Source: Thermotoga neapolitana DSM 4359
GTDB lineage: Bacteria > Thermotogota > Thermotogae > Thermotogales > Thermotogaceae
Assembly (NCBI RefSeq): GCF_000018945.1
Contig: NC_011978.1
Location: forward strand, 1,148,729-1,212,728
Length of the DNA stretch: 64,000 nucleotides
Reading direction: 5' to 3'
In this document: positions 12,740 to 13,792 of the stretch, piece by piece
Position numbering within the stretch: the stretch's first letter is position 1
How the letters are laid out: each line of letters begins with the position of its first letter
Translations under genes and position numbers: made by a program
Notes under the pieces: model-generated
What the model saw: only the letters and a program-made list of their open reading frames with translations
Told to the model about the DNA's origin: nothing
Databases searched by the model: none

Positions 12740-13792
12740 GTGGAACTTCTTGTTGATTCCCGTGAACTGAAAGAGTGGCTTTTCCTGCTCGACAAACTCG
12801 TTGGGACCGTAGAGCCGAGCGCAAGATTCGTCGATTTCTTCTTCAGGGATGGGCTCTGGCTCAGGGCGAGTGACAACTGTGCGAGCGTGGAGGTGTTTCT
12901 GGGAAAGATTCCACGTTTTGAGGGTAGCAGAAGGGTCTCTCTGGATCTTCTCAAATTCTTTTTGAGCGATGTGAAAGTTAAAGAGGTGCACGTCACAATT
13001 TCGCAGGATCATCTCGTTTTGAAGGCCGGAAACGAAGTGCTGGATGTCAGGTGTAGAGTGGGGGGGGTCCCTCCCGAAGACGGAAAAGAGGAGTTTCTCT
13101 GCACTCTTTCAAAACGTGAGTTCGAAAGTTCCATCAATTTTGCGAGTTCGAATCTGGATGAGGGGGAGTTTCTGGTTCTCCTTTTCGAGGAAAAAGATGT
13201 GCTCATGTTCGGCCCATCTTCGGAGATAGTGACTCTCTCTCAGATCTCTGCTGTTCCCACAACCTCCTTTTCCCTGAAAATACCTTATGTGACGGTGAGA
13301 CACGTTTTCAAAGCCCTTCAGAGACTGAACGTTCAGACCCTGGATTTCTACGAAAAGTCGGGAAAGCTGGTGGTGAAATACCCGTATCTTGTGATGGAAG
13401 TCTGCGGAGACAGGGTGAGCGTGGAGGAAAGAGAGGCCCTCAAACGCGTCCTTTCAGAAAAAGTCGTTGAAAGACTGGAGTCGAAAAAGGAAGTCCTCGC
13501 TAAACTCGTGAGAAAAGCGGCTGTGATCTCCAGAGGATCTTATGCCACCCTCTCGAGAAGAGGCAACGTCATGAGGGTGGTTGTGAAGAAAAAGAACCTG
13601 AGCTATACAGCGGAGTTGTTCGTAGAGCCGGGCAGGGACTTTCTCGTGGTTTTCCCCTCTAAAAAGCTGAGGAGTGCCCTCGCCCGGATGGAAGGTGAGA
13701 AGGTTGTACTTGAACTCACGGAAAGATTTTTGAAGATCTCAAACCTTTCAGGAACCCGCACCGTTTTTCTTGAGCTTGAGGAGTTCTCTTAA
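12740..13792 (+). CDS. Beta sliding clamp-like protein (divergent DnaN paralog candidate)
   Basis: 350 residues, close to the 360-370 of DnaN, and divisible into three similar parts (about 1-112, 113-228, 229-350). Part I has the clamp pattern of a helix, then LWLRASDNCASVEV and a second helix before HLVLKAGNEVLDV. Part II runs CTLSKREFESSINFASS, then VTVRHVFKALQRL. Part III shows EVLAKLVRKAAVISRG, DFLVVFPSKKLRSALARM and KVVLELTERFLKI, matching by eye the strand-helix pattern of DnaN domain III. The usual C-terminal P(M/I)RL is absent (it ends LELEEFS). Thermotoga has a normal dnaN elsewhere, so this would be a paralog. GTG start 6 bp after alaS. The last 45 bp overlap hslO on the other strand. 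Assignment rests on pattern only. Confidence 0.65.
   Translation: MELLVDSRELKEWLFLLDKLVGTVEPSARFVDFFFRDGLWLRASDNCASVEVFLGKIPRFEGSRRVSLDLLKFFLSDVKVKEVHVTISQDHLVLKAGNEVLDVRCRVGGVPPEDGKEEFLCTLSKREFESSINFASSNLDEGEFLVLLFEEKDVLMFGPSSEIVTLSQISAVPTTSFSLKIPYVTVRHVFKALQRLNVQTLDFYEKSGKLVVKYPYLVMEVCGDRVSVEEREALKRVLSEKVVERLESKKEVLAKLVRKAAVISRGSYATLSRRGNVMRVVVKKKNLSYTAELFVEPGRDFLVVFPSKKLRSALARMEGEKVVLELTERFLKISNLSGTRTVFLELEEFS

Follow-up and report, generated by a model that had tools for sequence, protein, structure and literature searches.

A divergent relative of the DnaN sliding clamp in Thermotoga neapolitana and across the Thermotogota

Bacteria are usually described as having one sliding clamp that serves for everything. 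A gene of Thermotoga neapolitana DSM 4359 raises the question of whether this description fits the Thermotogota and, if it does not, what a second clamp might be doing there. The gene occupies positions 12740..13792 on the plus strand of a 64,000-nucleotide stretch of contig NC_011978.1 (the window; positions refer to it unless a genome handle is given) and lies between alaS and hslO. Its intact open reading frame runs from a GTG start to a TGA stop and encodes 350 amino acids, exactly the coordinates and length given in the original prediction, which was made from the sequence alone and read the product as a probable second, divergent beta sliding clamp. Fold, profile comparison and phylogenetic distribution all support a divergent paralogue of this clamp.

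A three-domain clamp fold

An AlphaFold run on an alignment of 12 sequences gave a model of the window protein (predicted local distance difference test score, pLDDT, 92.7; predicted template modelling score, pTM, 0.88) made up of three E-H-EEE-E-H-EEE domains (E, strand; H, helix), in which a half-domain unit is repeated six times. In a fold search of the PDB, all listed matches were DnaN clamps, the best being 3pwe_A (E 3.9e-22, TM score 0.84), with the T. maritima DnaN (TM0262, PDB 1vpk) matched at E 1.4e-21; the list of viral fold matches was headed by phage beta clamps. One of the most divergent family members, at 20% identity, also gave a model (pLDDT 88.8, pTM 0.85) whose fold matches were again DnaN clamps. 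The three-domain processivity fold of sliding clamps is found in both proteins by models and fold search, and in the family by profiles.

The internal repeat is also visible when the family's own domains are aligned as profiles, with domains I and III matching at 88.8% (E 2.5e-6), II and III at 87.1% (E 4e-6), and I and II at 37.4% (E 3.5e-4). These matches and the model bear out the three similar units seen originally; neither the lack of a three-fold repeat nor a best fold match to another family, the two outcomes named beforehand as counting against a clamp, was observed. The order of elements predicted for the third unit also agrees with the model, which has a helix at 250-264, strands, a strand at 301-306, a helix at 307-316 and strands at 321-327 and 330-335.

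Domain I comprises residues 1-117 (12740..13090; all features of the gene are on the plus strand), with AlphaFold elements from the strand at 2-6 to that at 106-108. It matches the DnaN domain I profile at 94% and carries the conserved loop G22-x-x-E25-P26 and D45-(G)-C47. Domain II, residues 118-242 (13091..13465), is assigned the clamp fold from the model, conservation and profile alignment, and its conserved features are E141, the motif P182-Y-x-S/T-x-R187-H188-x-x-K191 and C222. Domain III, residues 243-350 (13466..13789), is assigned from the model, the DnaN alignment and conservation; it matches DnaN domain III at 92% and contains the helix L-R311-S-A-L-x-R316.

Common ancestry with DnaN

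DnaN is represented by Pfam models PF00712, PF02767 and PF02768 and by NCBIfam model TIGR00663. Searched as a single sequence, the window protein matched no model in Pfam and nothing relevant in NCBIfam or the PDB. Several other family members gave weak matches to the DnaN models of Pfam and NCBIfam (at best E 1e-5), and neither the window protein nor the family reaches the curated TIGR00663 cut-off for bacterial DnaN orthologues. Aligned as profiles, the family and DnaN are colinear over 346 columns (99.1%, E 7.6e-18); with a slightly different setting the match was 98%, and the controls (20 column-shuffled, one reversed) never reached 1%. The family profile also recovered T. maritima DnaN 1vpk in a PDB sequence search (E 2.2e-7) and matched DnaN down to E 1e-17 in the genomic search.

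Convergence, in which the fold would be alike without clamp ancestry, could draw on the empty single-sequence searches and on an identity to DnaN of only ~15% for the family (~17% between the window protein and the DnaN of its own genome). This explanation is hardly credible against a colinear full-length profile match with clean shuffled and reversed controls, a family profile that matches DnaN sequences directly, and members that weakly match the DnaN models themselves. Because the profile match runs end to end with clean controls and is joined by direct profile-to-sequence matches, homology to DnaN is secure, and we regard a beta-clamp fold and DnaN ancestry as nearly certain.

Loss of the partner pocket and retention of basic channel helices

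The family was compared with DnaN in an alignment with 30 DnaN sequences, using Escherichia coli numbering. The columns of G174, R176, P242, V247 and M362, which we take to be pocket residues of DnaN, are invariant in the 30 DnaN sequences and not kept in the clamp-like family, with the caveat that at ~15% identity single alignment columns may be off. The motifs DGFRL, FPDYRRV and MPIRL are missing as motifs, and where DnaN has the FPDYRRV loop the window-protein model has a helix (228-238). The C-terminal MPxR(L/V) is gone as well, the window protein ending in LELEEFS, as had been noticed from the sequence at the outset. Judged by these alignments, the normal partner-binding pocket is lost in the family. 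Although it shares the clamp fold, the family does not qualify as a DnaN orthologue by the score cut-off or by the pocket with its C-terminal strand.

The channel helices present a different picture. The second helix of each domain, placed at the channel by analogy with the known DnaN structure, carries Lys or Arg at a matching position: K72 in domain I (codon 12953..12955; K/R 94% weighted), R187 in domain II (R187-H188 codons 13298..13303; R187 100% and H188 98% weighted) and R311 in domain III (codon 13670..13672; K/R 78% weighted). The pseudo-equivalent DnaN positions are basic in 0, 97 and 0%, respectively. Positively charged channel helices are a general feature of sliding clamps and are found here by sequence and pseudo-symmetry; the three-fold Lys/Arg pattern is the strongest sequence-based indication that all three domains may still face DNA. 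Overall, the family is basic and Thermotogota DnaN acidic: the mean isoelectric point is 8.3 in the family and 4.8 in DnaN, and the mean net charge +5.8 and -17.4, respectively.

Conservation is highest at C222, H188 and C47, with P182, R187, D45, K191, Y183, R316 and E25 next. C222 (codon 13403..13405), the most conserved of all, and C47 (codon 12878..12880) co-occur in 73 of 78 sequences; both are lost in the three members of family f11, and genus g19 lacks only C47. By domain pseudo-symmetry, C47 may occupy the place of DnaN H175 and C222 that of the M362-M364 strand, which would put the pair at the position of the DnaN pocket but one domain earlier. Some DnaN sequences do align to the family profile with an offset of one domain (family 35-181 to 7evp 171-327). 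The conserved site could bind a metal, form a disulphide or represent a pocket that has moved.

Distribution and descent

Homologues were found in 94 of 103 Thermotogota genomes by single-sequence search. A profile built from 39 members matched in 100 genomes, among them two (G003 and G004) with ordinary DnaN only; with the DnaN-only matches removed, the clamp-like family is present in 98 of the 103. A profile that included divergent 325-residue forms found no clamp-like gene in G087, G088, G065, G003 or G004. The T. neapolitana genome has a single standard dnaN away from the clamp-like gene (G000:C1:423036-423398, minus strand), as had been expected of Thermotoga, and the two genes coexist across the phylum, since an ordinary DnaN domain III sits at a separate locus in 100 of the 103 genomes.

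Of the eight families with more than one genome that were tested in the gene tree, seven (f2, f3 and f7 to f11) are monophyletic with support 1.0; f1 is broken up by short forms on long branches. Within Thermotoga, where synonymous sites are unsaturated, the ratio of nonsynonymous to synonymous substitution rates is 0.04-0.08. The clamp-like gene is inherited vertically and under purifying selection, although its product changes about twice as fast as DnaN (between-family identity ~24-31% versus 41-55%). A tblastn search for phage and plasmid relatives returned none. A pattern scan of the genome collection, made with one motif only, yielded 11 confirmed loci, all 11 in Thermotogota, and an earlier single-sequence scan found none; this one-motif evidence gives no sign of the family outside the phylum.

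Coupling to polC

The suggestion that the gene might be conserved beside alaS across the Thermotogales did not hold, as this arrangement occurs only in Thermotoga and a single near genus (G090). In families f9 and f10, genus g32 excepted, the clamp-like gene instead lies downstream of polC on the same strand with a gap of -11 to +11 nucleotides, in the order ruvC-polC-clamp, and adjacency to polC is visible in ~29 genomes. The polC gene itself was found in 100 of 103 genomes and, where the C-terminus of its product was read, it keeps the canonical DnaN-binding tail QxTLF or QxSLF.

A possible second clamp and its alternatives

The evidence favours a protein that may have retained DNA encirclement and changed its partner site, and we lean, with modest confidence, towards a second, specialised DNA-encircling clamp acting near the PolC fork. 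Such a clamp would go back to an ancient duplication of dnaN, no later than the common ancestor of the Thermotogota, and would have descended vertically since. It would encircle duplex DNA as a closed ring, most likely homodimeric, in which the repeated Lys/Arg residues of the channel helices face the DNA, and it would tether or mark some of the activities of replication or repair. With the DnaN peptide pocket lost, QxxLF-type clients of the normal clamp would not be expected to bind at that position; partners may dock elsewhere, perhaps in the cleft formed by domains I and II, where invariant residues seem concentrated. Given the coupling to polC, such a clamp would most likely act with the replicative polymerase or at its fork. 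A more elaborate version seems doubtful at present: a two-clamp system of DnaN and a phylum-specific clamp dedicated to a fork task, its partner pocket moved from the II/III to the I/II cleft and possibly built on a Cys pair or metal site. Its basis is the pseudo-symmetric placement of the TDGC strand, the E25-P26 loop, the P182-R187-K191 helix and the C222 strand.

Several observations weigh against a specialised clamp at the fork. The gene was not found in two genera (G087/G088 and G003/G004) and in G065, all draft assemblies, and so may be dispensable, and its order relative to other genes is not conserved phylum-wide. Because PolC retains a DnaN-binding tail, it would not need the clamp-like protein for processivity. 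The charges that bridge the DnaN dimer (columns of E. coli R103/R105 and E301/E304) are not kept; interface hydrophobics are (E. coli F106 to L101, L108 to V103).

The loss of these salt bridges could also mean that the protein works only when paired with DnaN, in a mixed ring whose two halves would differ, one having the normal pocket and the other an altered face, similar in logic to heteromeric archaeal PCNA. Nearly every genome encodes both proteins, and a basic subunit might pair readily with an acidic one. Such obligate pairing is nonetheless improbable, given that the family evolves at about twice the pace of DnaN and that a few genomes keep DnaN without the clamp-like gene. A departure from the ring altogether, towards a monomeric or DNA-binding scaffold or a clamp-loader regulator built on the clamp fold, would account for the joint loss of pocket, C-terminal tail and interface charges and for the fast evolution, and the two cysteines and histidine at the top of the conservation ranking suggest a new site. 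We consider this rather improbable too, as all three domains and their channel helices are intact with basic residues at equivalent positions of each, a recurrence whose simplest explanation is that the domains jointly still face DNA.

It is also conceivable that the clamp is dedicated to the DnaE-type polymerase and not to PolC. Thermotogae DnaE3 is unusually reduced, with no OB or C-terminal domains and a reduced thumb (PMC3919608), and in most of the 30 DnaE loci read, the internal clamp-motif site has LFG(K/E) or variants such as VFGK in place of QxxLF, the glutamine being missing. A reduced DnaE and the clamp do not consistently occur together, however: family f8 has a long DnaE (mostly ~1020-1050 amino acids) and the clamp, and G087 combines a short DnaE with absence of the clamp. 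The operon link, moreover, is to polC and not to dnaE, and a clamp dedicated to DnaE is very unlikely.

Relation to known clamps

With DnaN the family shares the three-domain processivity fold, domain order, length and basic channel helices; it differs in its low identity, its scores below the family cut-offs, the loss of the pocket and MPxRL, its basic charge and, in two families, its place beside polC. The nearest precedent is DnaN-2 of Bacillus anthracis and its relatives, likewise a second clamp gene besides a normal dnaN, which shares ~40% of its sequence with DnaN-1 and can join replication (PMC3290774). The Thermotogota protein is far more diverged than DnaN-2, occurs phylum-wide and is without the pocket, and by its identity to its own DnaN and its phylum-wide family it is not a close duplicate of the Bacillus type. 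No account of the family or of a second Thermotoga clamp was found in a search of open-licence papers.

In eukaryotes the checkpoint clamp 9-1-1 is a heterotrimer whose subunits have two domains each, and it has a dedicated loader. Its place beside PCNA offers an analogy only, that of a diverged second clamp with different partners besides the replicative one; for the clamp-like protein there is no evidence of a heterotrimer or its own loader. If the proposed role is true, a division of labour among clamps, as between PCNA and 9-1-1, evolved in bacteria too, and ~100 hypothetical genes gain an identity, in a family that sequence annotation has overlooked and that often lies in the polC operon. 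Thermotoga is cultured, which opens the proteins to direct testing.

Atypical loci and the immediate neighbourhood

Some copies of the clamp-like gene are imperfect, with a fragment in G032 and broken or split genes in G041 and G059. In G059 (C1:11300-13400) there is a tandem partial duplication, in which the C-terminus of the first copy is replaced and a second open reading frame repeats the last half. The G041 gene (C9:268000-274000) lies in three frames and may be an assembly error, the genome being 87% complete. G002 (f5) and G001 (f4) have the clamp-like gene and no standard DnaN by PF02768 or TIGR00663; for G002, 93% complete, this could reflect an assembly gap or a genome relying on the divergent clamp alone. 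Extra DnaN-type domain III matches besides the main dnaN occur in G011 (C55:31053-31460, weak and within a 502-codon frame), G084 (C23:20517-20876) and G037 (C1:806411-806764).

In the window, alaS (10139-12733) adjoins the clamp-like gene upstream; the GTG start lies 6 nucleotides past alaS, and a Shine-Dalgarno-like GGGGTG overlaps the alaS stop. Downstream, hslO (13748-14635, minus strand) is convergent with the clamp-like gene, and the 3' ends of the two overlap by 45 nucleotides (13748-13792).
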